Below are positions 1,720 through 13,794 of a stretch of DNA of 21,991 nucleotides, one piece after another. Numbering within the stretch: the stretch's first letter is position 1; the number at the start of each line of letters is the position of its first letter. The stretch lies in IMG/VR virus record IMGVR_UViG_3300042402_000831, positions 1 through 21,991 of that record. One strand, 5' to 3'. The position numbers were made by a program, and so were the translations under genes. Origin of the DNA: a virus. The notes beneath the pieces are model-generated. The model ran no database searches and was not told the DNA's origin. It saw only the letters and a list, made by a program, of their open reading frames with translations.

Positions 1720-1723
1720 GAGT

Positions 1724-2053
1724 TTACTTTATCAACAGTCTCTTTATTTCTTCAAATGCCCATATTTCTTGCTTAGATAGTTTGGCAACCTCTTTTTTAT
1801 CCAGCCCTTTTTCAGAGATTGTAACCATAGGCTCTTCATCTAAAAAGTTAATATTTACGTAACCTTTTTCCCATAGATTTAGAATATCTTTATTTACCTG
1901 TGTTAGATGGTCCTCATACATGTCTGGCATAAACTCTTGCATTTTTGGAGTGATTGTATAAAGCAACTCACCATTTTCACTATCAACTCCAGCAACCTCT
2001 AGGGCACCCTCAAGTATTAGATTTTTAATTAATTCATCTTCATTGTTGGTCAT
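1724..2053 (-). CDS. Small acidic phage protein, full-length paralogue of the 2300-2524 gene
   Basis: A 109-aa acidic, mostly helical protein. Its first 60 residues align by eye with the protein encoded at 2300-2524: both have LI..LI..GA, then a (V/I)DS.NGE..Y.IT.K.QE..P..Y pattern. After this it continues with NLWEKGYVNINFLDEEPMV and a predicted helix-turn-helix-like tail, suggesting a compact winged-helix fold, but no DNA-binding residues can be assigned. The ATG at 2053 overlaps the thioredoxin gene by 14 bases and has AGGAG about ten bases upstream; the in-frame reading does not support a later start. The gene ends the operon that begins at the endolysin promoter. Function unknown. Confidence 0.8.
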   Translation of the reverse strand: MTNNEDELIKNLILEGALEVAGVDSENGELLYTITPKMQEFMPDMYEDHLTQVNKDILNLWEKGYVNINFLDEEPMVTISEKGLDKKEVAKLSKQEIWAFEEIKRLLIK

Positions 2054-2303
2054 ATCTAATCAACTCCTCTAACTGTTGCCTTGTTTGTGCTCCAGTTACA
2101 CGATGAATCTCTTTATTATCCTTTATAACTACAAAGGTTGGAACTGATCTAATCTCAAAGTCTTTTGTTCTTTCAATATCAGAGTCTACATCAATAATAA
2201 AAAACTTTGCCATTATTTGCTCAGTATTTAACTGCTCAACAATAGGCCTAGTTTTTTTACATGGATTACACCACTCTGCAGTAAAGTAAAGAATTGACTT
2301 CAT
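2040..2303 (-). CDS. Thioredoxin-like protein
   Basis: An 87-aa compact thioredoxin-fold protein, shorter than the roughly 105-aa cellular thioredoxins. The active site is WCNPCK with C12 and C15, after a first beta strand ILYFTAEW. The conserved cis-proline loop SVPTFVVI is at about residues 53-60. These residues are those needed for dithiol-disulfide exchange in the cytoplasm; there is no signal peptide. Phage thioredoxins can supply electrons to a ribonucleotide reductase, assist a polymerase as in T7, or keep proteins reduced. No reductase gene is in view, so the partner is unknown. Its ATG overlaps the previous stop by four bases (ATGA), and its end overlaps the next gene. It sits between two paralogous small proteins, which suggests a functional trio. 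Confidence 0.9.
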   Translation of the reverse strand: MKSILYFTAEWCNPCKKTRPIVEQLNTEQIMAKFFIIDVDSDIERTKDFEIRSVPTFVVIKDNKEIHRVTGAQTRQQLEELIRYDQQ

Positions 2304-2524
2304 TTAGTTCTTATTCTCCAATTCATGATCTTTGGACCCTGATCTATCATCTCAAACATGTTATATTCAAACTCATCTCTAAGTTCTAGATATAGTTCTG
2401 GATGAACCTCTTGCAGTTTATCAGTAATAGAATAAACAATCTCTCCATTGCTATCAATATCTGATATTTGAATGGCACCCTGATTAATTAAATGATCAAG
2501 AAGTGCTTGACTTTTTGCATCCAT
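2300..2524 (-). CDS. Truncated paralogue of the 1724-2053 protein
   Basis: A 74-aa protein, MDAKSQALLDHLINQGAIQI onward. It matches the first 60 residues of the protein encoded at 1724-2053 (GA, IDSNGEIVYSITDKLQEVHPELY) but stops after NMFEMIDQGPKIMNWRIRTK and lacks the last 40 residues. I checked the other two frames past that point; both hit stops quickly, so a simple recent frameshift does not restore a full copy. It starts with ATG overlapping the nuclease TAA by one base (TAATG), with AGGTAAG upstream, and ends with ATGA overlapping the thioredoxin start. It therefore appears to be expressed. Function unknown; a shortened partner or regulator of its paralogue is possible. Confidence 0.75.
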   Translation of the reverse strand: MDAKSQALLDHLINQGAIQISDIDSNGEIVYSITDKLQEVHPELYLELRDEFEYNMFEMIDQGPKIMNWRIRTK

Positions 2525-2931
2525 TACTTACCTGACTTTGCTCTAGCCTTCTTCAATGCGTCAAAATCTTTGACCTTTGTATCCCCAAGGTATCCCCATG
2601 CATAACCATCATTAATCATCATGTCATTAAGAGAAACTGTATCATCATTGACATAGATCCATCCTAAAATGCGACCATACTTCTCAGATGAATCCATCTT
2701 CTCAGTCTTAATTACAACAGACTTAGCATCCTTTAGAGCCTTCTTTAAGTACTCTTTTGACTCAAGACCAAGAGCCTTTTCTCTAAGGTCTTTTGTGCGA
2801 GACTCAGGGGTATCAATACCAGCCAATCTCACACGTGATGCAAACAGAATATCAAACCCTAAATCAATAAGAACGTCAATAGTATCTCCATCTACTACGC
2901 CTTCTACTTTTCTTACATAATATTCATACAT
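2524..2931 (-). CDS. Staphylococcal-type nuclease (SNase-like, cytoplasmic)
   Basis: A 135-aa protein that is essentially one SNase domain (OB-fold, calcium-dependent endonuclease acting on DNA and RNA). The calcium and catalytic residues are present: D16 in VVDGDTIDV, R35-D40-T41-E43 in RVRLAGIDTPE, and R87 in KYGRILGWIYV. Residue numbers for R35, D40, E43 and R87 coincide with those of the classical enzyme. There is no signal peptide or lipobox, so it should act inside the infected cell, for example in host nucleic-acid breakdown or in trimming phage DNA; which of these is inference. The gene is coupled by TAATG overlaps at both ends, between a zinc protein and the small paralogue gene. Confidence 0.92.
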   Translation of the reverse strand: MYEYYVRKVEGVVDGDTIDVLIDLGFDILFASRVRLAGIDTPESRTKDLREKALGLESKEYLKKALKDAKSVVIKTEKMDSSEKYGRILGWIYVNDDTVSLNDMMINDGYAWGYLGDTKVKDFDALKKARAKSGK

Positions 2932-3182
2932 TAGTAGTCTTCCCCCTTTGATTTATTCTCAATAAGTTTATGTCTTTCATCAAGTACTGTTATTGCAAAA
3001 GAAACCATCTTCTTATATCCTTCAGGATTATCCATAACCTTATTGTAGTGATGACCACAAAATAGCAATTCTCCGCTTAGCCCAGTAACCTTTACAAGCG
3101 CTTCTGCACTGCATCTGTCACATCGATCATGAGGTGATAGTTGCCATTCCTGCTTTACTTCATCTTTAATCATCGTAAACAT
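2931..3182 (-). CDS. Small zinc-binding protein, DUF7455-like
   Basis: An 83-aa protein from the preferred ATG at 3182. The core DRCDRCSAEALVKVTGLSG followed by GELLFCGHHYN matches the pattern of DUF7455 proteins, which are widespread in Actinobacteria and their phages: C21 and C24, then C42 with H44/H45 as likely zinc ligands. A longer reading from GTG at 3221 is possible, but it has no ribosome site and would overlap the preceding gene by 32 bases; from 3182 there is an AGAAAG about ten bases upstream and no overlap. The role of the family is unknown to me. The gene is in the endolysin operon and ends in TAATG with the nuclease. Its presence is one of the reasons to suspect an actinobacterial host. 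Confidence 0.82.
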   Translation of the reverse strand: MFTMIKDEVKQEWQLSPHDRCDRCSAEALVKVTGLSGELLFCGHHYNKVMDNPEGYKKMVSFAITVLDERHKLIENKSKGEDY

Positions 3183-3189
3183 TATACTA

Positions 3190-3375
3190 CTACTTTCTGT
3201 TATCAGTGGAATAGAATCCACTACCGTTGAATACTGCTGTTACATTAGAGTATACACGTTCCAGTGGTAGAGTGCAAGTTTCACACTCATACCCTGGATC
3301 GCTTTCCTTAATTGATCTTTGTTTAACTATAATGTCCTGACAAGTTCCAGTACATTTATATTCATAAACTGGCAT
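3190..3375 (-). CDS. FmdB-type zinc ribbon protein
   Basis: A 61-aa protein starting MPVYEYKCTGTC. This N-terminus and the ending GSGFYSTDNRK are typical of the FmdB/CxxC-CxxC small zinc-ribbon family. Ligands are C8 and C12 (here separated by three residues rather than two) and C31 and C34 in YECETC. Family members are proposed regulators, but their function is poorly known. The ATG overlaps the endolysin TAA (TAATG), so it is translated with the lysin. Three more small cysteine-rich proteins occur elsewhere in the window, which suggests the phage uses many single-zinc-ribbon adaptors. Confidence 0.88.
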   Translation of the reverse strand: MPVYEYKCTGTCQDIIVKQRSIKESDPGYECETCTLPLERVYSNVTAVFNGSGFYSTDNRK

Positions 3376-4169
3376 TACTTCAAGATTGCCTTATATGTTT
3401 TAATATCTACAACTCCAGTTACTGGTAGTTTAGCCTTAGCCTGAAAATCTTTAACTGCCTTTTCAGTTCCTGGACCAAATGATCCATCTGCTTTTAGATT
3501 AAGCGCTTCTTGAATCTTTTTTACAGATGAACCTTTTGCACCAATCTTAAACTGCTTAAACTCTTTCTTTGCAGGAGCGACAGGTGTAGCAGATGGTGCA
3601 GAGGCTTGCTTGACTGGAACATCAGATGAACCAACCTTTGAAAGCAGTGGAACATTTTCTTCACCAGCATAGACTGGACGACCCCAACCAACAACAGCGT
3701 TTACCAACTTCTGCTTGTTATTCTTGACATATCCACGAGTCTTCTCTACACACATTCCACCATTTCTCTGGTCTCCCTTTGAAGTTCCTGATGTGTTTCC
3801 TTCAATAACTTGAATAGTTCCATCACCATTGTTCTTAATGCAAAGACCAACATGTGAAATACGATTTACGCCATCTTCTGGGAAATCAAAATAAATCCAG
3901 TCTCCTGGTGTTGGATCGTCATTACGAGCATCTGCCCAACGACCCTCCTTCTTAAACTGATCTGATGCTGCTACTGTTGATGCAGACTTTGGAAACTTTG
4001 CAACCCCCGCAGTGAATGCACACCATGAAACGAACGATTGGCACCATGGTTGGAAGTTGACCTTCATCCATGCACCATACTTTGTTTCGTTATCTTTAGG
4101 ACCTTCAATAGTTCCTAGTTCTGCCTTCGCAACCTCAATGATTGCTTCTAAACTTCCTTTTGCTGCCAT
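3375..4169 (-). CDS. Endolysin: CHAP amidase/peptidase with C-terminal peptidoglycan-binding domain
   Basis: A 264-aa protein that should cut host peptidoglycan at lysis. Residues 5-165 form a CHAP domain: the catalytic Cys is C43 in FQPWCQSFVSWC, the His is H106 in RISHVGLCI, and E123 in QVIEGN is the likely third residue. Residues 170-205 are a Pro/Ala/Ser-rich linker. Residues 206-264 are a PG_binding_1-type domain with IGAKGSSVKKIQEALN, DGSFGPGTEKAVKDFQ and a closing TGVVDIKTYKAIL. No signal peptide is present, so export would need a holin. The start at 4169 has AGGAGA upstream and follows a clear promoter. Oddly, the two holin candidates lie nearly 4 kb away, with proteases, tRNAs and Hsp20 between. 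Confidence 0.94.
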   Translation of the reverse strand: MAAKGSLEAIIEVAKAELGTIEGPKDNETKYGAWMKVNFQPWCQSFVSWCAFTAGVAKFPKSASTVAASDQFKKEGRWADARNDDPTPGDWIYFDFPEDGVNRISHVGLCIKNNGDGTIQVIEGNTSGTSKGDQRNGGMCVEKTRGYVKNNKQKLVNAVVGWGRPVYAGEENVPLLSKVGSSDVPVKQASAPSATPVAPAKKEFKQFKIGAKGSSVKKIQEALNLKADGSFGPGTEKAVKDFQAKAKLPVTGVVDIKTYKAILK

Positions 4170-4224
4170 TTTTATCTCCTAATATTAAGGGGCAGTTTAA
4201 AGACATACCTAGGTCTCTTATATA

Positions 4225-4253
4225 ATTATAGCCTATTTACTACTTTTTAGCAA
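4225..4253 (-). promoter_or_regulatory. Sigma70-type promoter for the endolysin operon
   Basis: On the minus strand TTGCTA (4253-4248), a 17-bp spacer and a perfect TATAAT (4230-4225). It overlaps the last codons of the Hsp20 gene. Predicted transcription start is near 4218, leaving a leader of about 48 bases with an AGGAGA ribosome site. It would let the lysin be expressed separately from the heat-shock gene. Confidence 0.65.
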
Positions 4254-4668
4254 GTTTGATTTCAATAGTCTTTGGCTTTTTATCTTCAGGAATAATACGA
4301 TCTACATTAATATTTAACATACCATCCTTCATTTCTGCACCAGTTACTTCCATATATTCTCCAAGAGCAAATGATCGTGTAAACTTACGACCAGCAATTC
4401 CCTTGTGAACAACTTCAGCATCTGTTACTTCTACAATCTCACCCTTAATAATTAATGTTCCATTGTCTACTGATACATTAATATTTTCCTTAGAAAATCC
4501 AGCAACGGCTATAGAAATTCTGTATGTATCTTCATCTAATTTAAGAAGATCATATGGAGGGTAGGATTGTGAATTTGTTTTATGTGCTGTGTTCAAACGG
4601 CTTAACTCTCTGTTAAAGCCAATAAAAAAAGGATCATTGAATAGATCCATTGCATGTGTTACTACCAT
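4240..4668 (-). CDS. Small heat-shock protein (Hsp20/alpha-crystallin)
   Basis: A 142-aa ATP-independent holdase chaperone of the Hsp20 family, close in style to IbpA-like class A proteins. The N-terminal arm has a short FNRELSRL helix; the alpha-crystallin domain spans about residues 37-133, with YPPYDLLKLDEDTYRISIAV at its start and the conserved HKGIAGRKFTRSF and DGMLNINV strands. The C-terminal IEI at 136-138 is the I-x-I motif that docks neighbouring subunits. Such genes occur in several groups of aquatic phages. AAAGGGG six bases before ATG 4668 fixes the start. It has its own extended -10 promoter and a striking inverted repeat at the predicted transcript start. It likely protects phage or host proteins during infection. 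Confidence 0.93.
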   Translation of the reverse strand: MVVTHAMDLFNDPFFIGFNRELSRLNTAHKTNSQSYPPYDLLKLDEDTYRISIAVAGFSKENINVSVDNGTLIIKGEIVEVTDAEVVHKGIAGRKFTRSFALGEYMEVTGAEMKDGMLNINVDRIIPEDKKPKTIEIKLAKK

Positions 4669-4696
4669 TTTATTCCCCTTTCAAGCGAATAAGTTA

Positions 4697-4721
4697 ATGT
4701 ACTTCCATTTGGCAAGTACAT
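4697..4721. promoter_or_regulatory. 8-bp inverted repeat with 9-nt spacer before Hsp20 (operator or leader hairpin)
   Basis: Plus-strand arms ATGTACTT and AAGTACAT, a perfect 8-bp inverted repeat separated by nine bases (CCATTTGGC). It starts about where the Hsp20 transcript should begin (near 4719) and lies entirely between the -10 and the ribosome site. CC/GG inside the spacer could extend the RNA hairpin past a bulge. The 9-nt spacing is that of the CIRCE element bound by HrcA, but the arm sequence is different. It has no following T-run, so it is not a terminator. Confidence 0.6.
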
Positions 4722-4725
4722 ATAT

Positions 4726-4734
4726 ATTATATCA
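4726..4734 (-). promoter_or_regulatory. Extended -10 promoter for the Hsp20 gene
   Basis: Minus strand TGATATAAT inside TTTGATATAATATAT, a perfect -10 with TGn extension. The region where a -35 box would be is the 3' end of tRNA-Glu and does not match. The predicted start near 4719 falls on the edge of the inverted repeat at 4697-4721. The 11-base string TTTGATATAAT is repeated before the PA14 protein gene. Confidence 0.6.
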
Positions 4735-4742
4735 AACTTTTG

Positions 4743-4814
4743 TAGCCCCACAGGGACTTGAACCCTGTTCACCAAGATGAAAGCCTGGTATCCTAACCCA
4801 TGGACGATGGGGCC
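4743..4814 (-). tRNA. tRNA-Glu (anticodon TTC)
   Basis: Minus strand, 72 bases to the discriminator A. Acceptor GGCCCCA pairs with TGGGGCT (one G-T at the end), D stem GTCC/GGAT, anticodon stem CCAGG/CTTGG with loop CTTTCAT, giving anticodon TTC. The T arm is CAGGG-TTCAAGT-CCCTG. No CCA is encoded (ACAA follows). It reads GAA/GAG, and GAA is common in these genes. It is the last of three tandem tRNAs, one base after tRNA-Gly. Confidence 0.95.
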
Positions 4815-4815
4815 T

Positions 4816-4889
4816 TGGAGCGAGTGACCAGAATCGAACTGGCACAGCCAACTTGGAAGGATGGTGCACTACCATTATGCAACACTCGC
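4816..4889 (-). tRNA. tRNA-Gly (anticodon TCC), CCA encoded
   Basis: Minus strand. Acceptor GCGAGTG pairs perfectly with CACTCGC, then T73 and an encoded CCA (4818-4816). Anticodon arm CCATC-CTTCCAA-GTTGG gives anticodon TCC; the fourth stem pair is a T-T mismatch (CCATC against GTTGG). T arm GCCAG-TTCGATT-CTGGT, with one weak pair. It reads GGA and GGG. It is the only one of the three with CCA in the DNA. Confidence 0.94.
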
Positions 4890-4894
4890 TTTTG

Positions 4895-4967
4895 CTGGTC
4901 TGGCAGGCTACGATCCTGCGACTTCCGAATTAACAGTTCGGCACTCTACCAACTGAGTTACAGACCA
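4895..4967 (-). tRNA. tRNA-Asn (anticodon GTT)
   Basis: Minus strand, 73 bases. Acceptor TGGTCTG/CAGACCA is perfect, with discriminator G73 as usual for Asn. Anticodon arm CCGAA-CTGTTAA-TTCGG is fully paired, giving anticodon GTT. T arm GCAGG-ATCGTAG-CCTGC has ATCGTAG in place of the usual TTCRANT loop. No CCA encoded. It lies 7 bases after the subtilase stop codon and is probably processed out of that transcript. Confidence 0.95.
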
Positions 4968-4974
4968 AAACCAA

Positions 4975-5856
4975 TTAACCTAAAAGACTTACAAGCCTAT
5001 TAGTTGTTGTTGTTCTTCCTACTGCTGACTTAGATACTGATACAAAATAATCATATGTTGATTGATATGTACCCTTGTAATTTTTAGCCCAGTATGCAGA
5101 AAATGCAGCGGTAGCAGCAGATGTTCCAACTGATCTACCAATCTGAGTATTAAATGCTCCAAGAGAATAGAAGTCTACCTCTGGTGCAGCATTTGAGTAT
5201 GGAGCCATAGCATTATCTTCTGTTGCTCCACCGATTGCAACTGCTTGTGGAATACATGCTGGGAAATGAATTCTTGAGTAATCTCTATTATTTCCAGCAG
5301 CAAAAAATGTAGCAACACCTAATGATGACAATCTGTCAATGTTTCCAATAAGTGTAGCGTGAGTTGCTCTGATTGGGCAATAGTTTGTTCCAGTTCTAAG
5401 TCCAGAATTAGTTCCCTGTGAAGCAGAAACCGAAACAATATTATACTTTTGCTTATTAGCAACTACCCATGTAAGAGCCTTTTCTACTTCAGTAATACTA
5501 TATGTATCCATTGTTCCACGCTTAGTTAGTCCTGCAATACGAATAAAGATAATGTCAGCATCTGGATTAACTTGATTAGCAATTAGAGCCATAATTGTTC
5601 CGTGCTCAAATCCACCATTTAGTGCAACTGAAGATGGAAGAGTTGCTGCTCCAGGACCTTCCTGGAATCGTTGACCATTTGGACAAACCATGCTTCCAAG
5701 AATACAAACCTCTTGTACAAGTTTTGCCTTTAGTTGTGGAATAGATGAATCAATTGCTGTATCAATAATAACAATTGATTTATTTGGTTGTGCTTGTACT
5801 GGTTGTAGCAATACTAAACTAAGTACTGCAATAATTCCCACTGCGATTTTTTTCAT
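4975..5856 (-). CDS. Exported subtilisin-like serine protease (S8 family)
   Basis: A 293-aa protein with a clear signal peptide (MKK, a hydrophobic core to about residue 19, and cleavage near VQAQ at 20-23). The mature part has the full S8 set: D32 in IVIIDTAID, H85 in GGFEHGTIMALI, oxyanion N189 in FFAAGNN and S246 in GRSVGTSAATAAF. GTSAA replaces the more common GTSMA. C51/C58 and C160/C201 could form disulfides, fitting an extracytoplasmic site. There is no pro-domain of normal length between signal and catalytic Asp, so maturation would be unusual. Secreted subtilases are rare in phages; it may act on envelope or surface proteins or on another exported phage protein. AAGGAG ribosome site four bases from ATG. 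It shares an 18-base leader with the surface-protein gene. Confidence 0.9.
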   Translation of the reverse strand: MKKIAVGIIAVLSLVLLQPVQAQPNKSIVIIDTAIDSSIPQLKAKLVQEVCILGSMVCPNGQRFQEGPGAATLPSSVALNGGFEHGTIMALIANQVNPDADIIFIRIAGLTKRGTMDTYSITEVEKALTWVVANKQKYNIVSVSASQGTNSGLRTGTNYCPIRATHATLIGNIDRLSSLGVATFFAAGNNRDYSRIHFPACIPQAVAIGGATEDNAMAPYSNAAPEVDFYSLGAFNTQIGRSVGTSAATAAFSAYWAKNYKGTYQSTYDYFVSVSKSAVGRTTTTNRLVSLLG

Positions 5857-5857
5857 T

Positions 5858-5875
5858 TTTCTCCTTGTTAGTTTT
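5858..5875 (-). repeat. 18-base leader repeat, copy 1 (before subtilase)
   Basis: Minus strand AAAACTAACAAGGAGAAA. The same 18 bases occur at 11453-11470 before the surface-protein gene, with nearly the same distance to the start codon (one versus two bases). It contains the AAGGAG ribosome site, and here also the TAA stop of the preceding gene. Confidence 0.8.
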
Positions 5876-6089
5876 CTTTGATTTTAATTACTACCTGGCA
5901 AGGGTCTCCGCCCTCTTCCCACTCTTGCTGTTCTTCTTCATTCATATAGGGATCACCCTCATGAGTATTACAGAACGGTTCAGTTACCCATCCCCGCTCA
6001 ATTCCGTTTTTAAGCCAAATCTCAAACTCATTAAAATCTGACTCCACGCTTTGTATATCTTTTAGAATCTCTTCAAATTCTTCGTTCAT
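5868..6089 (-). CDS. Small acidic conserved phage protein, probably leaderless mRNA
   Basis: A 73-aa very acidic protein, with an N-terminal helix and then the recognisable block GWVTEPFCNTHEGDPYMN, EEEQQEWEEGG, DPCQVVIKI. Proteins with this GW-EPFC-TH-GDP-GGDPC pattern are frequent in actinobacteriophages; their function is unknown to me. C39, H42 and C63 could bind metal. The start codon is decided by the promoter: the -10 hexamer ends seven bases before the A of ATG 6089, so transcription should start at or next to the start codon, and no ribosome site precedes it. It is followed 11 bases later by the subtilase, so it may lead that gene's transcript. Confidence 0.85.
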   Translation of the reverse strand: MNEEFEEILKDIQSVESDFNEFEIWLKNGIERGWVTEPFCNTHEGDPYMNEEEQQEWEEGGDPCQVVIKIKEN

Positions 6090-6095
6090 ATATAA

Positions 6096-6124
6096 AGTAT
6101 AACAGTTATCAAAAAATAAGTCAA
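6096..6124 (-). promoter_or_regulatory. Strong promoter giving a leaderless transcript
   Basis: Minus strand TTGACT (6124-6119), 17-bp spacer, TATACT (6101-6096) preceded by TGT (extended -10). Each hexamer differs from consensus at one base. The expected start, seven bases after the -10, is position 6089, the A of the ATG of the acidic protein. It likely drives that gene, the subtilase and the tRNAs. Confidence 0.75.
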
Positions 6125-6131
6125 CCCCATT

Positions 6132-6911
6132 TTATTGATTTTTAGGTAGTTGATGATCTTTAAATTTATTTCCACGCACATCTTTTCCAGTATAGTATAG
6201 TTTGTCTGGACCTAAATTTTTAAAATTACTTTCATATCTTAAAGAGCCATGTTCGAAAACAGTATTTAATTCATCTTCTATAATATCTTTTGGAAAAATA
6301 TCGGTTGCATTTTTTAATTCAAAAGAATCACAAAAATATCTTGGTATTGGGATTATGCCAATAATAGGAGAGTCTTTTACTACTGTAATTTTTACATTTG
6401 GAATGTCTATTTTTATATTAAATGTAAATGTAAATCTAATATTGTCTGATTCAACAACTCCAGTCATAGGGCTCATCCCAGGCAATGGAAAATTTGGTGG
6501 AGCAATTGTCATTAAATTTACACCTATAGGAGTTTTTAACTGTATTGGGATATGTATTGTTAATATCCCATGACCAAATTCTGATGATAAAGTAACATAA
6601 TTTTTATTTTTAAACTTATCATCGTGCATATATGATTGTATTGATAAGTCTTCTACAGAGTTACCACCATTCCAAACAACATCAAAAGAATATGGAACAC
6701 TTATAGCAAATCCCTGCATATTTCCTATTGACAACGGTAAACACCTATAAAAGTCTTTGGTGAACCATCCTCTTTTATGGTCAGAGTTTAATGGTCTTAA
6801 AAAAGAACTATAATTCATGTCAAAAGGCTCTAGTCCAGAATGTGGTGTGAGTGGAAAAATAGCAATAGTTTTTTCTGGAACAAATAATCCATCATCTTGA
6901 TTTATAATCAT
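6132..6911 (-). CDS. DUF6065-like protein
   Basis: A 259-aa protein from ATG 6911, chosen because AAGGAA lies at the right distance and because the longer frame from 6953 would overlap the preceding gene. It resembles the DUF6065 family: early RPLNSDHKRGWFTKDFYRCL, then LPLSIGNMQGFAISVP, FDVVWNGG, and a later block of beta strands rich in Pro/Ile (TPIGVNLMTIAPPNFPLPG, then KDSPIIGIIPIPRYF). The function of the family is not known to me. No signal peptide, transmembrane helix or catalytic motif stands out; the repeated Trp/Gly/Pro and beta pattern suggests a cupin-like or jelly-roll fold, but that is a guess. It starts eight bases after the proteasome-like gene and should share its promoter, which suggests a functional pair. 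Confidence 0.8.
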   Translation of the reverse strand: MIINQDDGLFVPEKTIAIFPLTPHSGLEPFDMNYSSFLRPLNSDHKRGWFTKDFYRCLPLSIGNMQGFAISVPYSFDVVWNGGNSVEDLSIQSYMHDDKFKNKNYVTLSSEFGHGILTIHIPIQLKTPIGVNLMTIAPPNFPLPGMSPMTGVVESDNIRFTFTFNIKIDIPNVKITVVKDSPIIGIIPIPRYFCDSFELKNATDIFPKDIIEDELNTVFEHGSLRYESNFKNLGPDKLYYTGKDVRGNKFKDHQLPKNQ

Positions 6912-6919
6912 AAAATTCC

Positions 6920-7444
6920 TTAAATGCTTACCACATCGACTGGACCCATGCAAGATGGATTAAATTTAATTGCTGAAGCAACGGCTTGGTTAACTCTGTT
7001 TCTAGCATTTTTTTGTTTATCTGTTGCATATAAAACACCGTATGCATATTCTGAACCAGAACCAATAGCAAGATATGGCAATGAGTATTTAGATAGTGAC
7101 ATATCTCCTGAACTATGCTCATAGATTTCACCACGGATACCAATTATTAGACTAAGATCTCCTTCTTTAGAAGTGTCAACCCAAAACTCGTTATAAAATT
7201 CACGAAGTTCTTTTACAAACCTTGTTTGCATAAACTTATCTGTATCTTTAATATTGGGTGCAGTTGGTTTAAAGTTATGCTTCATTCTTTCGCCATCCAT
7301 AGATCCTGCGTACCCAATTAAATAAGGTCCTGTCTTCCAAACCTTTGGGGAATTTAGTGAAAGAATAACTCCATCATCTGATGCTCCACGATCTCCAGCC
7401 ATATAAACTTTATCTTCATGGCGCAGAGCAACAATACAAGTCAT
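6920..7444 (-). CDS. Proteasome beta / HslV-like Ntn hydrolase
   Basis: A 174-aa protein from ATG 7444. After removal of Met, the mature N-terminus is TCIVALRHEDKVYMAGDRG; T1, D17 (in AGDRGAS) and K33 (in NSPKVWK) fall at exactly the positions of the proteasome catalytic triad. GYAGSMDGE matches the conserved glycine segment of the family, and AIGSGSEYAYGVLYA matches the later GSG region. The family cuts peptides inside a barrel-shaped assembly; subunits without a propeptide, as here, resemble HslV. No ATPase partner or alpha subunit is in the window. The frame extends to 7504, but the GGGAGGGG ribosome site and the catalytic Thr fix the start. It has a near-consensus promoter with a palindrome and is followed by the DUF6065-like gene. 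Confidence 0.9.
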   Translation of the reverse strand: MTCIVALRHEDKVYMAGDRGASDDGVILSLNSPKVWKTGPYLIGYAGSMDGERMKHNFKPTAPNIKDTDKFMQTRFVKELREFYNEFWVDTSKEGDLSLIIGIRGEIYEHSSGDMSLSKYSLPYLAIGSGSEYAYGVLYATDKQKNARNRVNQAVASAIKFNPSCMGPVDVVSI

Positions 7445-7464
7445 GACAAACCCCTCCCAAGTTT

Positions 7465-7484
7465 TGGTATATTTAAGTATACCA
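7465..7484. promoter_or_regulatory. 20-bp near-palindrome on the -10 of the Ntn hydrolase promoter (operator candidate)
   Basis: TGGTATATTTAAGTATACCA: 7-bp perfect arms TGGTATA/TATACCA and a nearly symmetric core, with one mismatched pair overall. It covers the -10 hexamer and the expected transcription start near 7469, the usual place for a repressor site. Confidence 0.5.
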
Positions 7485-7504
7485 TTGCCCAGGAGGGGTG
7501 TCAA
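7476..7504 (-). promoter_or_regulatory. Near-consensus sigma70-type promoter for the Ntn hydrolase / DUF6065 pair
   Basis: Minus strand TTGACA (7504-7499, perfect), 17-bp spacer, TATACT (7481-7476) preceded by TGG (extended -10). It is the best promoter in the window. Predicted start about 7469, leader about 25 bases with GGGAGGGG before ATG 7444. Confidence 0.8.
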
Positions 7505-7514
7505 GCAAGGTCTA

Positions 7515-7826
7515 TTATGACTGCTTATCTACTTTAGCAAATGCCGCATTAATTTCAGCAGCACTCAACTTGCCATCATCCAAAAATGCACGAGCAAGTC
7601 TTTCAATTACTGTCGCTACTCCAAGCAATCCAGCCATTGTGACGGCTGTTACTGTAGAAATACCAACAACTGCACCTGCACCAATGACTGATAGTCCTGA
7701 TGCAGCAAATACAGCAACAATTCTAAGGAAAATATTCCAAATATTTGTTACCGCTGATGATCCAAGAACCTCTTCACCTGTAGATGGGTCTACTACTGTT
7801 AGGTCTATATCTTTCTTTTTTGCCAT
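7515..7826 (-). CDS. Two-helix membrane protein, holin candidate
   Basis: A 103-aa protein. A charged 25-residue N-terminal segment (MAKKKDIDLTVVDPSTGEEV) is followed by two close hydrophobic segments, about residues 32-54 and 56-74, separated by a small Gly-rich turn. The C-terminal tail LARAFLDDGKLSAAEINAAF has an EF-hand-like DDGKLS.AE pattern. Size and topology fit a phage holin or a partner of one, and the neighbouring gene is a second small membrane protein, as in holin/antiholin pairs. This role is inference: there is no lysin beside it, the endolysin being nearly 4 kb further along. AAGGAAG ribosome site; the gene ends before the strong Ntn promoter. Confidence 0.82.
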   Translation of the reverse strand: MAKKKDIDLTVVDPSTGEEVLGSSAVTNIWNIFLRIVAVFAASGLSVIGAGAVVGISTVTAVTMAGLLGVATVIERLARAFLDDGKLSAAEINAAFAKVDKQS

Positions 7827-7827
7827 T

Positions 7828-8034
7828 TTAATCTTCCTTTCTTAGTGGTATTGTGATTAGCCAAATAACTGTGGTTGCAAGTACTGCAATACCAACAATA
7901 TCTCTTGCTGATCCTGTTAGTGTTAACCATGCAATAAAGAAGCCAAGGAGAGTAAAGGCTTGTGCTATTACTTCAACTCCAGCATCTTTCAGCCATGTGA
8001 AGAATCCCTTCACAACTTTTTTGATGATTTTCAT
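7828..8034 (-). CDS. 68-aa two-helix membrane protein, holin or antiholin candidate
   Basis: A 68-aa protein with a Lys-rich amphipathic start (MKIIKKVVKGFFTWLKDAG), two hydrophobic segments at about residues 22-40 and 45-62, and a charged end PLRKED. Starts three bases after the last codon of the 716-aa gene (TAATATG); the AGGAGA that codes the final Arg-Arg of that protein is also its ribosome site, so it is expected to be translated from the same transcript. Length and topology fit class II holins. The tight tie to an exported PA14 protein leaves another option: a membrane partner for that protein. No specific family is recognised. Confidence 0.82.
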   Translation of the reverse strand: MKIIKKVVKGFFTWLKDAGVEVIAQAFTLLGFFIAWLTLTGSARDIVGIAVLATTVIWLITIPLRKED

Positions 8035-8035
8035 A

Positions 8036-10186
8036 TTATCTCCTCATCCCAATCATTACATTAGCAATCTGTGAAACAATGATTACTGGAATAATGACTT
8101 CTTGGGCCTTCTCTCTCTGATCGTCTGTCATATCCATACCTAATTCAGAGAAATTAGATAGGAGTTCTGTAACATCCACTTCAAATACTGCTCCAAGTGG
8201 GTCTGCTAAGAATGCTTCTGTTTGTACTTCTGTTACTGCATCTGCTAATGTAAAGGGCATTGGTGTCTCCCCTGCAGTTTCTGCTCTGTCTGTGAACTCA
8301 ACGAATGCTTCTGCAAGTGCTGGGTTAGACTTCATCTGCTCAGCAATCTGTGCAACTTCTGAAGGCTTGATACCAAGGTCTTCTGCAACCTCTTGTTTTG
8401 CTTCTTGTGTCAATGCTTTGAGTGTTTGACTTACTGCTGTAATCTGTTCAGGGGAAAGAGTAACTAACTTATTATCCTTACTTGTAAGATTAGCAATAAC
8501 TCCAGATAGATCTTCTGATGTACCAGTTCCCTTTTCAGGAATGAGGGCTGCTAAAATCTCATCAGTGATTTCTGTATCTGGCTCAGTCCAAGGGTTCTCT
8601 TCAGTTTCTGGATCTGGTCCAGGTTCTGGTGAAGGCTCTGGAGTAGGCTCTTCAGTAGGCTCTACAACTGGCTCTTCAGTTGGTTCTGGATCTGGTGTGA
8701 CCTCTGGGGTAGGCTCAGGTGTAGGCTCATCCGTAGGGTCTACTGTAGGCTCTGGAGATGGCTCTGGAGTAGGGTCAGGTGTTGGTTCACCTGTTGGCTC
8801 ATCAGTTGGGTCTGGTGAAGGCTCTTGGCTTGGTTCTTCAGTTGGCTCTTCAGTTGGTTCTGGAGAAGGTTCTGGTGTGGGTTCTGGGGTAGGCTGGTTG
8901 GCTGCAGCATTGGCTGCTGCTTGAGCAATAGCAGCATTAAGTTCTCTCTGTGCCTGCTCATAATAATATTCCCATGCATCATCTATTGCAAAATTCATAT
9001 CTGCAATTGCTTGATCGTATGTTGCTATAGCATTATTTTTTGCAGTCAACTTGTTTGATGTATTTGTTACTGCAGAATTATGTGCATTAGTCTTAGTTGT
9101 TAATGTTTGATTATATGTAGTAAGTTTATTATTTTCCTGTGTATAAATAGTGGACTTATCATTGTATACTGCCAACTTATTATTATAATTTGTTTGTGCT
9201 GTAGCCCTTGCTGCAATTGCATCATCATATGCGTCTATCTGTGCTTGAGTTGGTCCTGATCCAGAAGAAAATGTATTAAGATTACAACTAAAATTTTGTC
9301 CCCATACTCTTGGATTTCCAGCATAGTCACATCCTGCACCAGTCCATCCACCAGGAATTGCCCATCCAAGATGATAGGATCCTGGGCCTCCACCGTTGTA
9401 CCACCAGATTTCTACATTAAGTGTTTTGTCTTGGCTGACATCGTATACTGGAGAATATAGACTCCACTCTACACCTTGTTCTACCCAGTTATCAACAGCA
9501 AGTTGTTCATCAACATACATTCTAAATCCATCATCTGTTTCACCAGCAAAATATGTTGATGTAAACCATGATGGAACAGTTATTTTTCCAGTAAACTTAA
9601 CTATAAAGTTTTCATACCTACCGCAAACTGGGAGATTCATAGAGTTTGAATTCCATATTCCATTGCATATAACAGAGCCTGGAACTGCTACGTTTCCGTT
9701 TCTTAATAAGTTATATACAGTAAACTGAAGACCTTGTGCAGAAGCGGATTGAAGGTTTGATTGTGTGGTTTGAACATTTATATTTGCTATGTTAAGAGCA
9801 TTTTGAGCATTATTTTTATCTGTAAGGGCATTATTTTTATTTTGAAGTGCTGTGCCCACTATGATTGTTTGACTATCTACATTTGATTGAGCAAGGTTCT
9901 TTTCTTCTAAGGCTGTGGCTTCTGCTTCTACCGCATCTTCATGGGCATCGTAGGCATCATCTCTAAGTTCCATCGCATTTGTGGCATAGGCAAACTTATT
10001 TTCTGCTATGTCTATAAGATCTATAAAGTCATCCTGATAAACTAAATTGCTTACTTTACTGTTAAGTTCTTGTATTTCTTGAGATGCAACAGTTAAAGGA
10101 TCGTCAGAATGAGCCTCTGTAGGGGCTATTAGAAGCCAAGCAAAGGCAAGGGTAGAAACTGTAAATATACGCAAGAGTTTTTTCAA
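8036..10186 (-). CDS. Exported PA14-domain protein with coiled coils, Pro/Glu repeat and C-terminal hydrophobic end
   Basis: A 716-aa protein, TTG start with GAGGAG upstream. Signal peptide 1-27 (MKKLLRIF, hydrophobic core, TEAHS). Residues 30-150 are helical, Asn/Ala/Gln-rich, coiled-coil-like. Residues 150-282 form a PA14-like beta domain with the signature GETDDGFRMYVD (D218, D219), WWYNGGGPGSYHLGW and cysteines C174/C188 and C286/C301. A second helical stretch is at 315-430. Residues 431-535 are a Pro-Glu/Asp-Pro repeat (PTPEPTPEPSPEPTEEP), a typical cell-wall-spanning spacer, and 536-716 is a helical domain ending VIIPVIIVSQIANVMIGMRR, which could anchor in the membrane. PA14 domains bind carbohydrate or surface ligands in known proteins. 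Export before lysis suggests a surface-displayed phage protein that alters adhesion or blocks other phages; this is inference. Confidence 0.88.
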   Translation of the reverse strand: MKKLLRIFTVSTLAFAWLLIAPTEAHSDDPLTVASQEIQELNSKVSNLVYQDDFIDLIDIAENKFAYATNAMELRDDAYDAHEDAVEAEATALEEKNLAQSNVDSQTIIVGTALQNKNNALTDKNNAQNALNIANINVQTTQSNLQSASAQGLQFTVYNLLRNGNVAVPGSVICNGIWNSNSMNLPVCGRYENFIVKFTGKITVPSWFTSTYFAGETDDGFRMYVDEQLAVDNWVEQGVEWSLYSPVYDVSQDKTLNVEIWWYNGGGPGSYHLGWAIPGGWTGAGCDYAGNPRVWGQNFSCNLNTFSSGSGPTQAQIDAYDDAIAARATAQTNYNNKLAVYNDKSTIYTQENNKLTTYNQTLTTKTNAHNSAVTNTSNKLTAKNNAIATYDQAIADMNFAIDDAWEYYYEQAQRELNAAIAQAAANAAANQPTPEPTPEPSPEPTEEPTEEPSQEPSPDPTDEPTGEPTPDPTPEPSPEPTVDPTDEPTPEPTPEVTPDPEPTEEPVVEPTEEPTPEPSPEPGPDPETEENPWTEPDTEITDEILAALIPEKGTGTSEDLSGVIANLTSKDNKLVTLSPEQITAVSQTLKALTQEAKQEVAEDLGIKPSEVAQIAEQMKSNPALAEAFVEFTDRAETAGETPMPFTLADAVTEVQTEAFLADPLGAVFEVDVTELLSNFSELGMDMTDDQREKAQEVIIPVIIVSQIANVMIGMRR
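8582..8896 (-). repeat. Pro/Glu-coding tandem repeat within the PA14 protein gene
   Basis: About 315 bases coding for a degenerate P-T/S-P/E-E-P repeat (residues 431-535). At DNA level short units such as GGCTCTGGAGTAGGCTC recur on the plus strand with point variation. It is likely to vary in length between related phages through slippage or recombination. Confidence 0.85.
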
Positions 10187-10289: not shown

Positions 10290-11450
10290 TTACTTAACTA
10301 GAGTAACCTTAGCCTTTGGATTCTTTGCATTCCATTGGCGAGCCAACTTGTTGAAAGCATCCTTAAGTGACTTGATTGCTGCAGCATTATCTGCTGTCAA
10401 CTTAGCAATCTGTGCATCCTTAGCAGCAAGAGCAGCATCTGATGCTACCTTAGCAGCAGCAGCCTTATCTGTCTCTACCTTAACTGCTGCAGCAAGTGCT
10501 GCATCTGCAGCAACCTTTGCATCAGCAAGTGCCTTATCTGAAGCAGCCTTAGCAGCAACTGCATCTGCAGCAGCCTTTACAACTGCAGCATCTGCTACAG
10601 CCTTAGCAGCAATCGCTGCATCCTTTGCAGCCTTCTCAGCAGCAAGTTCTGATACTAGATCACGAACTGCGATTTCTGCAAATGGTGCTAGTGTGCGAGC
10701 AGTTAGACCAACTACGTCAGCAGTTGATGCATCGCCAGCAGTTGTTGGAGCAAACATAATAAGTGAACGATTTCCAGTTGCTGGAAGTGTTGCCTTAAAT
10801 GTTGCTACTCCAAAGTCTGAAAGTGTAGCACCAGTTGTTGCTGTTGCTGTATCCATGACTGCTGTTGCAGCAAATACTGTTGCAGTAAGTGACTTACCAG
10901 AAACCTTGTTTCCAAATACGTCTGTTGCTGTAACTAGAATATCCTGCTTTGTGCCAGCAGCGCCAGTTGCAGGTGCTGATACTGTTAGGTTATTAATCTT
11001 ACCAGGCTCACCCTGTACATAGTATGTGAAAGTAGTTCCTTGGTTAGTAACTGTAACTGTACCAATTGCTGTTGTCTTTGTGTAGACAAAAAATGTTGCA
11101 GTTGTTCCAGTACCTGTTGCGATTGTCAAAGATGATGATCCTGACGATGCTCCAATTGGTGCTGCATCTGAGTGTAGAGCAGACACGATTGTTGCGTTGG
11201 TTGCTGATACAGTAACTGCTGTTCCTGTGTCAACAGTTGCAACAAATCTAAGTGCATCTGTTGCATCAATCTTGTTGTCTGATGGTACTGGCAATGCAGC
11301 AGGTGTAGCAATAGCGGAATTTGTTGTATTTGCAGTTCCGTTTAGCGTTACAGCCACTGTCATTACGGCAGCACTTGCAGGTGTTGCTACGATTGTGCCC
11401 AAAGTCATGGCTGCAACCATGGCAAGAGCGATCTTCTTAAATGAATTCAT
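10290..11450 (-). CDS. Exported Ig-like/coiled-coil surface protein
   Basis: A 386-aa protein. Signal peptide 1-27 (MNSFKKIALAMVAAMTLGTI, cleavage after ATPASA). Residues 28-255 are Thr/Ala/Val-rich beta sequence, with a segment like VQGEPGKINNLTVSAP, DILVTATDVFGNKVSGKSL, which is typical of Ig-like (invasin/BIG-type) domains. Residues 262-360 are a long Ala/Lys coiled coil (KAVADAAVVKAAADAVAAKA), and the end LARQWNAKNPKAKVTLVK is basic. There are no cysteines. Layout resembles cell-surface or S-layer-like proteins of actinobacteria rather than a phage virion protein. It lies just after TerL and has its own terminator. G+C and Ala codon content are visibly above its neighbours. It may be host-derived and could mask or remodel the infected surface; alternatively it is an unusual decoration protein. 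Confidence 0.87.
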   Translation of the reverse strand: MNSFKKIALAMVAAMTLGTIVATPASAAVMTVAVTLNGTANTTNSAIATPAALPVPSDNKIDATDALRFVATVDTGTAVTVSATNATIVSALHSDAAPIGASSGSSSLTIATGTGTTATFFVYTKTTAIGTVTVTNQGTTFTYYVQGEPGKINNLTVSAPATGAAGTKQDILVTATDVFGNKVSGKSLTATVFAATAVMDTATATTGATLSDFGVATFKATLPATGNRSLIMFAPTTAGDASTADVVGLTARTLAPFAEIAVRDLVSELAAEKAAKDAAIAAKAVADAAVVKAAADAVAAKAASDKALADAKVAADAALAAAVKVETDKAAAAKVASDAALAAKDAQIAKLTADNAAAIKSLKDAFNKLARQWNAKNPKAKVTLVK

Positions 11451-11492: not shown

Positions 11493-13268
11493 TTAAATTA
11501 AGTTAAATCCGTCAAGAAAGTCCTTAACGTCGTCAGGCATTTCTCGATTATCTAATTTTACCATACCCTGCTCTCTTTCTGCAAGTCGTGCTGAAGAGGA
11601 CCAAGTATGGACATCTATCTCAGTATTATTACTCTTTGGTGTATGAGAAATAGCACCAAATACAGCGCCCGTCACGGCATCTGCTAAGTCCTTAGACTTC
11701 TTTCTTGGGTGATCTACACGATTACCCTTCATAATTTTAAGTTCTGACATTTCCTCTAATAGTATAGGTATTCTTGGAATAGCAACACGCTCTTCATAAA
11801 TCATCATAGCAAGATCTTCATAGTGTTTCTTTGCTACAGATACAGTCTCAGTTCTAATTCCAACAGCCTGTAGTTCGTTCTGAATATCAAATGACTGCCA
11901 ACGGTCAAATGAAACCATGCCAATATTAAACCCCTGTCTTCTTAAATTAATAATCCACTGCTTTACCTCAGACAGATTTACTGGTCCCTCTGCTCTTGGC
12001 TCCCACCAGGCTACAGCATCTACTATTACGATAGGTGCTACTTGTTCATAGTCTTTAATTACCTGGATATTTACCCACTTATCTACGTGAGCAATTGCTA
12101 CCGCACACTTATCGTGCTTTTGTGCAAGGTCAGCATGAATATAGTAGGTCTTATCTGGATCAGGCACAAACGTTTCGTCAAACCTTCTAAATGAATCTAG
12201 TGGGTTTCTAGTGCTCATGCACTTTTCAACCTTATCAATTTGTTTAAAGAAAGCATCTGATGAGTATGTTGGCATGCAGGCAAAACGCATCATTGCATCT
12301 CCAAGGTCAGTAAAAAATGCTAACTTAAAGTCTTCTATCTTACGGGTAGGATTTACTTCCCATGTAGGTCTTTTGAATGCAAATACCCTTGGAATTTTAT
12401 ACTGAAGAATTGTATCTTCATCCCATGAAATTTCAAACTGGTTTCCTGGATCTGTATGTGGCAAATCTTCGTTCATAATAAAAGTATGTCTGCGTTCAAT
12501 GGTTTCTTTTTCAGCAATCACTGACTCATATCGTTGAGAAATAAAGTCACCTTGATATCGTGGGAAAGAAAGCAAAACTACCTTGCCAAGGTCAGGGAAA
12601 CGAGAATCTACTGTTCCACGAAATGCCTTATAGATATTATCAGCAGTCTTTCCTTGTTCGTTTCCAGTTCCAACCTCTGTTGCAAAACCAGAAATCTCAT
12701 CAAGGACTGCCATTAAAAGGTTTAAACCCTCATGTGATTCTCTTTCTGAGTGTCCAGAGTAGACAGTAATTGACTTATCAAACTCAATTGAGTCTGCCTT
12801 TGCATTAAACTTTCCTGCAAACCATGGGGATCTTTCAATCTTAGTCTTAAATCCTTTAAAGAAAACGTTCTTAGCCTGCTGAGCGTTAACAGCAACGTTA
12901 ATAATATCAATAGCATCTCCTGCAGGCTTACCAAAATAAATTGCTGGATCTTTAAGGCATAGAAGTTTATATACTACATATGCACAGGCTACTGTTGAGA
13001 TAAAGTCTTTACCGCTACCCTTGCCAAGTTGAAGGATTAGTTCGTTCTTTGTATATTTATTAAAATGACTTAAACCTTCTGCAGGCCCCATAATATCAAT
13101 AAGATCTTCTTTACGATAGATCTGGCTCATAGCCTCAACAATTTCGTATTGAATATCAGATAAAAGTGGTTGACCAAGATAGTCAGGTGACTGGACAAAT
13201 GTCTTTACGTCAACTGGTGTTTCAACAAAGTGATTCTCCTTTAATACTTCAAGAAAATCATTGAACAT
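11493..13268 (-). CDS. terL: Terminase large subunit
   Basis: A 591-aa DNA-packaging motor. The ATPase half has Walker A LGKGSGKD (G82-D88) and Walker B LLMAVLDE (D190, E191). The nuclease half has the RNase H-like acidic set: D380 in IHADLAQ, D455 in VSFDRWQ, and D530 in KDLADAVTGA. It pumps genome into proheads and cuts it at the portal. The frame extends to TTG at 13277, but ATG at 13268 is the better start; no strong ribosome site is seen, and the overlap of 11 bases with the upstream gene suggests translational coupling. The upstream gene is a small-terminase candidate. Downstream, instead of portal and head genes, come the surface-protein gene and a large accessory block. Confidence 0.95.
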   Translation of the reverse strand: MFNDFLEVLKENHFVETPVDVKTFVQSPDYLGQPLLSDIQYEIVEAMSQIYRKEDLIDIMGPAEGLSHFNKYTKNELILQLGKGSGKDFISTVACAYVVYKLLCLKDPAIYFGKPAGDAIDIINVAVNAQQAKNVFFKGFKTKIERSPWFAGKFNAKADSIEFDKSITVYSGHSERESHEGLNLLMAVLDEISGFATEVGTGNEQGKTADNIYKAFRGTVDSRFPDLGKVVLLSFPRYQGDFISQRYESVIAEKETIERRHTFIMNEDLPHTDPGNQFEISWDEDTILQYKIPRVFAFKRPTWEVNPTRKIEDFKLAFFTDLGDAMMRFACMPTYSSDAFFKQIDKVEKCMSTRNPLDSFRRFDETFVPDPDKTYYIHADLAQKHDKCAVAIAHVDKWVNIQVIKDYEQVAPIVIVDAVAWWEPRAEGPVNLSEVKQWIINLRRQGFNIGMVSFDRWQSFDIQNELQAVGIRTETVSVAKKHYEDLAMMIYEERVAIPRIPILLEEMSELKIMKGNRVDHPRKKSKDLADAVTGAVFGAISHTPKSNNTEIDVHTWSSSARLAEREQGMVKLDNREMPDDVKDFLDGFNLI

Positions 13269-13794
13269 CGTGGACAACAGTAATCACTTCTCCTTCTTTT
13301 GCAATAGCGGATAAGCGCTGCATAATAATATCTCTTACCTCTGGATGCTCTGAGGCGATATCTCTTAAGATTCCTACAAGCACTTCTTGCTTTCTTTCAA
13401 TCTCAATCATTTCTTCTGCAAGTTCTTTATTCTCAAGAAGTCCTGCTTTTTGTAGCATATCAATTCTTCTTGACTCAATATCTAATACTAATTTAATACC
13501 AGCAGTTTTTGCTGTAAGGTTTGTTGATAGACTTGCCTCATCAATAACTTCGTATGCTTTTGTGATTAACTTTGTATAGTGTGTATCTGCACCAACCAGG
13601 GCTTCCTTAGCACGAGCACGGATAGCATCATTAGCAGATGCCATAACCTTCCACTCATTAATTAATGAAACAACACGGGTACGGGGAATATCTAACTCTT
13701 TAGAAATAACAGTTGGATCATTGCCCTTAAGGTATTCAGTAACTACTTGATTTACTTCATCAAGATGATTAATTAATTCTGACTCAGTTGACAT
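13258..13794 (-). CDS. Probable terminase small subunit
   Basis: A 178-aa all-helical protein. Residues 10-50 include a helix-turn-helix-like segment (VVTEYLKGNDPTVISKELDI, PRTRVVSLINEW), the remainder is long charged helices (ESRRIDMLQKAGLLENKELA, EEMIEIERKQEVL) suited to ring assembly. Its position directly before TerL, with an 11-base overlap, its size and HTH + coiled-coil layout are what is expected for TerS, which recognises phage DNA for packaging. The sequence itself does not prove it. AGAGGG ribosome site before ATG 13794, overlapping the end of the DUF3310 gene. Confidence 0.78.
   Translation of the reverse strand: MSTESELINHLDEVNQVVTEYLKGNDPTVISKELDIPRTRVVSLINEWKVMASANDAIRARAKEALVGADTHYTKLITKAYEVIDEASLSTNLTAKTAGIKLVLDIESRRIDMLQKAGLLENKELAEEMIEIERKQEVLVGILRDIASEHPEVRDIIMQRLSAIAKEGEVITVVHDVQ

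Follow-up and report, generated by a model that had tools for sequence, protein, structure and literature searches.

The window analysed here is a stretch of 21,991 b, held as a separate IMG/VR record (IMGVR_UViG_3300042402_000831), in which the minus strand carries almost all genes. Three of these genes are the subject of the present analysis: a proteasome-like Ntn hydrolase (6920..7444, 174 aa), a 73-aa acidic protein designated g5868 (5868..6089) and an exported protease of the S8 family (4975..5856), all on the minus strand. The gene order runs from DNA polymerase III alpha, a UvsX/RecA-like protein, resolvases, an exonuclease, the terminase and two large signal-peptide-like proteins, through two small proteins with paired transmembrane (TM)-like segments, the Ntn hydrolase, a DUF6065 protein, g5868, the S8 protease and three tRNAs, to Hsp20, endolysin, a zinc ribbon protein, DUF7455, a nuclease and thioredoxin. 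A 40-kb IMG/VR record (L002) represents the window's own phage; its listed genes are 100% identical and their order is unchanged. A preliminary description had grouped the Ntn hydrolase, DUF6065, S8 protease and Hsp20 into a proteostasis island around a tRNA cluster, with thioredoxin shortly downstream. The five proteins are real, as all score above their Pfam curated cut-offs (Proteasome PF00227, 27.8 bits vs 22.4; DUF6065, 117.5 vs 26.6; Peptidase_S8, 51.3 vs 21.8; HSP20, 66 vs 20.8; thioredoxin, 64.6 vs 23.5), and so is the tRNA cluster (Asn, Gly and Glu by tRNA calling, 4742..4967, minus strand). The set is also flanked by the endolysin (3375-4169) and by the two small TM-like proteins (7515-8034), neither of which had been weighed in that description.

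Conservation was assessed in 441 related IMG/VR loci, many of them overlapping and all belonging to one phage group. Several anchor genes were used in order to limit bias; loci are common to different anchors, so that pooled counts overlap. Each anchor scan comprised at most the best 80 loci out of up to 600 or more, and near relatives were counted. Loci with 97% DNA identity across half of the shorter one formed a cluster, and one locus was counted per cluster.

With the window-type Ntn hydrolase as anchor, at least 2.6 kb could be read downstream in 66 of 80 loci; g5868 was found in all 66 and S8 in 61. The g5868 anchor revealed the Ntn gene upstream in 65/66 loci and S8 within 400 b downstream in 45/76. 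Where 2 kb were available upstream of an S8 anchor, the Ntn gene was there in 59/59 loci, and g5868 lay within 400 b in 57. A scan for distant S8 relatives retrieved 7 loci only, in each of which Ntn, g5868 and S8 are consecutive. Thirteen of 80 terminase-anchored loci extended at least 8.5 kb downstream; among these, Ntn and g5868 were present in 13 each, Hsp20 within 10 kb in 13, endolysin in 12, S8 in 7 and DUF6065 in 3. The association was looser around a more distant Ntn type (L040 type, 71 loci), with g5868 in 60, Hsp20 in 44, S8 in 19 and DUF6065 in 15. Among 24 long records, 21 reached via Ntn, S8 or g5868 scans and 3 via terminase or DUF6065 scans, Ntn was present in the former 21 and S8 in 14, figures that depend on the way these records were retrieved. 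S8 lay within 1.6 kb of the Ntn start in 14/14 of the long records containing it, 4 of which had been reached through S8. Pfam models applied to 40 records, many of them fragments, detected Hsp20 in 29, DUF6065 in 17 (10 above cut-off) and S8 in only 9, the last because the relatives diverge (identity among S8 relatives falls to 29%).

The endolysin is the usual companion of these genes. In the L040 type it lies directly upstream of Ntn in 59/59 loci with 1.2 kb of upstream sequence (44/46 clusters). In 58 window-type clusters it was located within 3 kb downstream in 38, at 3-6 kb in 6, beyond 6 kb in 6 and directly upstream in 2, and was not seen in 6. As judged from gene order, the tight unit is composed of Ntn, g5868 and an exported protein, the endolysin usually being its direct upstream neighbour or lying at most 3 kb downstream.

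The Ntn hydrolase was recognised by Pfam, PHROGs, profile and fold comparisons. Its start is most likely the ATG at 7444 and not the TTG at 7504 that had been proposed; GGGAGGGG sits just upstream of this ATG. Residues M1, T2, K34 and G47 are invariant in 44 diverse aligned relatives, and the last three are equivalent to the catalytic-core residues Thr1, Lys33 and Gly47. The equivalent of Asp17 is D18 in the window and in the other members shown, and Glu in one sublineage (L188, L266, L268, L282). The protein has no propeptide, Thr following Met directly, and Thr2 would become Thr1 once Met is removed. The AlphaFold2 model (pLDDT 93.4) displays four helices, numbered by order (50-57, 68-87, 131-140 and 147-161), and its best solved matches are BPH (5ovt, E 5.6e-12, TM score 0.79) and HslV. 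Structural comparison left the two tied, with a Z of 19.2 for BPH 5ovs (rmsd 2.6, 165 residues aligned) and of 19.1 for HslV 6kr1 (rmsd 2.9, 163 aligned); both alignments begin at model residue 2 and at chain residue 1 or its equivalent. The best PDB profile match was BPH of Cupriavidus (5ovu, E 7e-7). The NCBIfam HslV equivalog gave 22.8 bits against a cut-off of 157.75, and the score for the proteasome beta equivalog was also below its cut-off.

Proteasome-like homologs are found in many bacteria and phages; Fuchs et al. (2021, PMC8665760) catalogued 22 new ones and described the group I homologs HslV, BPH, AAH, CPH and PPH. The phage protein shares with group I the residues Thr1, Lys33 and Gly47, probably Asp17 as well (Glu in the above sublineage), a compact four-helix fold and, as reported for the new homologs, the lack of a visible AAA+ partner in the phage. 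AAA_2 was detected in 0/21 long phage records, which may be incomplete and whose hosts could provide an unfoldase, and AAA gave three weak matches in these 21 records, none above cut-off. The phage protein differs from group I in staying below the NCBIfam cut-offs for HslV and proteasome beta and in its fixed genomic context. An identity with PPH was rejected, since the Ntn protein has 174 residues and four helices, whereas PPH has about 140 residues and lacks the second helix (H2). PMC8665760 reports neither a genomic context pointing to a function for the new homologs nor an Actinobacteria-specific phage with AAH; the homolog presented here, in contrast, sits in a constant gene neighbourhood next to a conserved partner, and its regulatory structure is open to testing. 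A protein of the Gordonia phage Daredevil also matches by fold, and the Ntn hydrolase is therefore not the first actinophage protein with this fold. Named phage records delivered 152 Ntn matches, all below 60% identity, of which 131 come from Salmonella, Escherichia, Vibrio and Aeromonas phages. In a small sample of five named phages viewed without a control, three (L361, L363, L364) carry an annotated cell-wall enzyme no more than about 5 kb from their Ntn-like gene: a cell wall hydrolase together with a putative metallopeptidase in AAS21, a D-Ala-D-Ala carboxypeptidase in Vibrio phage 1.101.O, and an endolysin in Aeromonas phage 2L372X. Neither Ntn nor S8 had a relative in the cellular genome contigs, searched with narrow patterns, which leaves a cellular origin of either unsupported.

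The partner gene g5868 encodes a protein with a conserved C/H/C motif, a net charge of -16 and no signal-peptide-like start. At E 0.01 nothing matched among 50,697 named phage records; a search relaxed to E 10 brought up a protein of Mycobacterium phage Aminay (E 4) that displays the same C/H/C pattern by eye. A promoter TTGACT-17-TATACT (6096..6124, minus strand) precedes the gene, its -10 box ending 6 nt before the ATG. This position is kept in 65/70 non-redundant relatives, with the -35 box starting 35 nt before the ATG and a spacing of 17, and an equally good site occurred there in 0.19% of shuffles. The promoter is also kept where DUF6065 (9/10) or other DNA (7/8) is inserted between Ntn and g5868. 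In most of the inspected relatives with no insertion, the -35 box lies inside the last Ntn codons, so that protein and promoter share sequence. As the -10 box ends 6 nt before the ATG at a fixed place, the g5868 mRNA is predicted to be leaderless. Leaderless mRNAs are common in actinobacteria.

The Ntn gene has a promoter of its own, TTGACA-17-TATACT (7476..7504, minus strand), with 11 of 12 consensus bases. It was the best of 35 promoter-like sites in the region 1700-13400; the general scan showed no excess over shuffles (36.4 sites), and the weight of the promoter evidence therefore rests on conservation. A site TTGACA-17/18-TATACT within 3 mismatches was present in 69/74 non-redundant relatives, 44 of them having no mismatch. 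The inverted repeats before Ntn proved to be genuine and form one nested structure (7450..7499, minus strand). Its outer arms are located in the promoter spacer (7488-7499) and over the Ntn Shine-Dalgarno sequence (7450-7461), and an inner palindrome surrounds the -10 box. A strong stem (score 18 or more) was found in 33/69 non-redundant Ntn upstream regions, including that of the window's phage; shuffled sequences reach this score in 2.1% and arms swapped between lineages in 14.1%. In the hairpin, the promoter-spacer arm pairs with the Shine-Dalgarno sequence, and with the ATG as well in one subgroup, while the arm sequences themselves differ from lineage to lineage. With the register set by Watson-Crick pairs alone, the 33 stems contain 76 G-U against 3 A-C combinations. 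This disfavours an inverted repeat acting only as a DNA operator, though the arm composition itself favours G-U (15.0% vs 4.1% A-C in swaps). An RNAalifold consensus from a mixed-register alignment of 30 hairpin sequences was weak (-1.39 kcal/mol; 6 pairs, all showing two-sided changes), and a per-sequence pairing test was used in its place.

Folding was predicted for read-through RNA and for RNA started at the Ntn promoter, the transcription start being assumed 6 nt after the -10 box. For the 33 stem loci the predicted unpaired probability of the Shine-Dalgarno sequence was 0.03 in read-through RNA and 0.54 in promoter-started RNA, a difference that arises partly by construction, as these loci were picked by stem score; in the other 36 the values were 0.38 and 0.53. 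In these 33 of 69 regions the models predict a lock of the T4 gene e type, in which the ribosome-binding site is paired on read-through RNA and the 5' arm is missing from promoter transcripts. For the T4 lysozyme gene e, PMC3014915 and PMC2988022 describe long early transcripts that hide the ribosome site and late-promoter transcripts without the 5' part. The locks of T4 e, soc, 49 and I-TevI are alike in both respects, with the Shine-Dalgarno sequence paired on read-through mRNA and the 5' arm absent from own-promoter transcripts. They differ in using a T4 late promoter, whereas the site here is of the -35/-10 type (PMC3014915, PMC2988022). In addition, the lock of T4 guards the lysis gene e, whereas the one predicted here, in about half of the relatives, guards a proteasome-like gene and not the endolysin (PMC3014915).

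The presence of the hairpin follows the position of the endolysin and also the clade. Loci with the hairpin have the endolysin downstream in 120 cases, directly upstream in 0 and unplaced in 30; those with no hairpin have it directly upstream in 129, downstream in 25 and unplaced in 21, and 11 further loci have no such promoter. In non-redundant counts, the endolysin is downstream in 26 and upstream in 0 with the hairpin, and downstream in 5 and upstream in 30 with no hairpin.

The S8 protease begins with a signal-peptide-like segment followed by the catalytic domain (D32, H85, N189, S246); no propeptide family was matched. The catalytic Asp, His, Asn and Ser are present in 54/54 aligned rows (53 distinct), 7 slot proteins that are not S8-like being left out, and named phage records gave two weak S8 matches. 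The slot protein was defined as one open reading frame (ORF), taken in its longest frame and at least 60 aa long, whose start lies no more than 130 nt from the g5868 stop. Export was called by a crude home-made rule, which missed the starts of 18 S8 and of 23/27 HExxH proteins; the N-termini of the missed HExxH proteins that were inspected are hydrophobic by eye. Among 317 loci with 1 kb to read, the slot holds S8 in 215 (214 by model and L385 by eye), an HExxH protein in 27 and a trypsin-like protein in 2, the remainder being exported with no protease motif or not exported. When S8- and DUF6065-anchored loci are left out, as was also done for the cluster counts, 227 loci remain, with S8 in 136, HExxH in 27, trypsin-like in 2, exported non-protease in 47 and other proteins in 15. 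Counted per cluster (n=132), 82 slots contain S8, 15 an HExxH metalloprotease-like protein, 1 a trypsin-like protein, 24 an exported non-protease and 10 other proteins. The mix varies by anchor, and in 40 L040-type clusters it consists of 20 exported non-proteases, 11 S8, 7 HExxH and 2 others. One group of exported proteins in the protease's place (L053:17273-17938 and relatives, 57 loci in the linked group) has no Pfam match, and many of its members contain 'NIIVC' by eye.

The HExxH motif is present in 27/27 members of its slot family (16 unique) and in 0/262 other plus-strand ORFs of 300-520 aa. In eight unique proteins HEFGHAxAxPH is followed by D(I/L)M (metzincin-like), and in the other eight HExxH has EGxA downstream (gluzincin-like). 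The trypsin-like protein scores 35.8 bits against a Pfam cut-off of 20.6 and contains TAAHC, while the GDSGGP position reads ADSGIP. The sharing of one slot by unrelated catalytic types argues for exported proteolysis as the conserved trait, and such swapping strongly hints at a selected function.

In the favoured reading, which is possible while short of probable, the locus would represent a timed, lysis-associated, two-compartment protease module of actinobacteriophages. We infer the role in lysis by analogy, from the neighbouring genes, the gene e-like lock and a precedent in Listeria, where, according to PMC8235301, a phage-derived secreted metzincin pair raises sensitivity to phage lysis. 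That metzincin/TIMP-like pair resembles the present unit in linking a phage-derived exported protease to phage lysis; it differs in that a lipoprotein is cleaved by the protease there, whereas g5868 has no signal-peptide-like start. On the proposed mechanism, read-through mRNA from upstream genes would hide the Ntn ribosome site and own-promoter mRNA would not, the hairpin thereby preventing early Ntn production. The Ntn hydrolase would degrade unfolded host or phage proteins in the cytoplasm with no phage unfoldase, and g5868 may restrain or direct it. The exported protease would cut cell-surface or wall-associated proteins late in infection, which would help the endolysin to open the cell or free virions. 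The fuller version, a lysis programme with two protease arms across the membrane, in which Ntn is under a gene e-like lock, the exported arm is swapped in type (subtilase, trypsin-like, metzincin-like, gluzincin-like) and the leaderless acidic protein is the fixed link, is rather doubtful as a whole. Protein cutting is suggested to be part of how this group of uncultivated phages completes infection, and if the exported protease does aid lysis, these phages would possess a proteolytic lysis factor besides the endolysin.

Several observations weigh against the module as proposed, the weakest links being the protease-free slots, the remoteness of the endolysin in certain relatives and the restriction to one phage group. 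No recognised protease occupies the slot in 34/132 clusters, about a quarter, and in 46/46 of the protease-free slot loci with at least 4 kb left to read, motifs of the S8, HExxH and trypsin types are all absent within 5 kb; among shorter ones, 1/16 has S8 further on. The metalloprotease assignments rest on the motif, because matches to Pfam M66, M6, M9 and M61 are below the curated cut-off, L389 has no peptidase match and no solved structure matched L301; the trypsin-like protein is one contig seen twice (L124, L240). The window-type endolysin lies 3-9 kb downstream in 12/58 clusters and was not seen in 6. The hairpin is absent from 36/69 non-redundant loci and tracks clade as well as endolysin position. 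A stem at the endolysin's own start was found in 5/78 only, leaving unsupported the idea of a lock that shifts to whichever gene heads the lysis unit. Finally, all loci descend from one phage group, and synteny alone is therefore no proof of a functional link.

The composition of the slot also bears on a broader explanation, in which it serves the cell surface in general: its products would remodel the surface of the infected cell, for instance against superinfection, or process other exported proteins (8036-10186, 10290-11450), proteases being one of several solutions. The exported non-proteases of 24/132 clusters are in line with this, as are the two further signal-peptide-like proteins just upstream and the Trp halogenase, carbamoyltransferase and 2OG oxygenase found at nearby variable positions in some relatives. 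However, proteases belonging to several unrelated types fill the slot in 98/132 clusters, which is beyond expectation for a general export slot, and this explanation is considered unlikely. Another possibility is that descent alone keeps Ntn next to the g5868-protease unit, the two being independent and functionally unlinked. The two separate conserved promoters, the second of which survives insertions, agree with this, as do the restriction to one phage group and the flanks of the five named phages, where the 5 kb around Ntn contain neither an annotated S8 nor an annotated Hsp20. It is likewise considered unlikely, given that S8 accompanies Ntn in every S8-anchored locus with 2 kb of upstream sequence and in every long S8 record, 4 of these reached through S8, and that the adjacency persists despite the low S8 identity and much gene flux around it.

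The two other members of the supposed island did not behave as part of it. The DUF6065 protein (6132..6911, minus strand, start most likely at ATG 6911) is inserted between Ntn and g5868, outside the core unit. It was rejected as a partner for being sporadic in relatives, with 2/66 and 15/71 occurrences in Ntn-anchored loci of the window and L040 types and 21/42 DUF6065-anchored loci having Ntn beside. Its distribution indicates a repeatedly gained gene. In the record of L002 (G001) the DUF6065 model matched in three places, one above cut-off and two weak, and matches lie elsewhere in other records; its name had no match in the literature searched. Hsp20 (4240..4668, minus strand, an alpha-crystallin protein) occurred in 20/21 long Ntn-bearing records, 13 of which have it no farther than 6 kb from Ntn and 7 at 10-25 kb; it was rejected as a fixed neighbour, its distance to Ntn ranging from 1 to 25 kb. 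Within 2.6 kb it accompanied Ntn in only 15/66 window-type loci, and in 44/71 of the other type. An island conserved within about 3 kb was thus not recovered: the co-occurrence holds for Ntn and the exported protease, fails for DUF6065 and, for Hsp20, persists at variable distance. A proteostasis programme, in which Ntn, Hsp20, thioredoxin and the subtilase manage folding and turnover during replication, is very improbable: it can call on the frequency of Hsp20 in long records and on its presence within 10 kb in 13/13 terminase-anchored loci, but the wandering position of Hsp20, the sporadic DUF6065 and the absence of any AAA+ match above cut-off in the 21 long records speak against it, and folding in the cytoplasm would be out of reach for an exported protease. 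The pairing of Ntn with an exported protease is what stands of the proposed co-occurrence, and a role in lysis or at the envelope fits better, since the endolysin is the usual context and the slot takes unrelated proteases.

The terminase used as anchor (large subunit, 11493..13277, minus strand) is 54% identical to that of Streptomyces phages of the Stanwilliamsviridae such as Genie2 (MK359332). Genie2 shares the order DnaE polymerase, RecA-like protein, resolvase, Cas4-like exonuclease, RuvC and terminase; it differs in that a tRNA array follows the terminase and that none of the genes in the 19.8 kb shown, many of them labelled 'hypothetical', is annotated as Ntn, Hsp20 or subtilase. WhiB, suggested as a key indicator of actinophages in PMC10202952, was above cut-off in 21/21 long relatives. 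Together with the terminase and gene-order match, this indicates that the host is probably an actinobacterium.

The remaining features of the window all lie on the minus strand. The endolysin (3375..4169; Pfam, PHROGs) combines CHAP and PG_binding_1 domains and is preceded by a promoter-like site at 4225-4253. The set had been placed next to head-side genes; no capsid or head protein could be named there, 410-2931 being scanned by Pfam only and 2931-4169 by Pfam and PHROGs, and the sole 'head and packaging' label, phrog_1224, is an endolysin family matched by the endolysin. Upstream of Ntn, two small proteins with two TM-like segments each (7515..7826 and 7828..8034) are holin-like only by topology and position, and PHROG 26427 labels the family of the former as nuclease. 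Between these membrane genes and the terminase, 8036-11450 is occupied by the two signal-peptide-like proteins: a large one with a PA14 domain and a Pro/Thr-rich repeat (8036..10186; Pfam and N-terminus) and one with no family match (10290..11450). Variable positions near the cassette carry a tryptophan halogenase, a carbamoyltransferase, a 2OG-Fe(II) oxygenase and a glutathione-peroxidase-like protein in some relatives (L006:12757-14349, L107:9738-11378, L102:1133-1696, L143:1789-2577).

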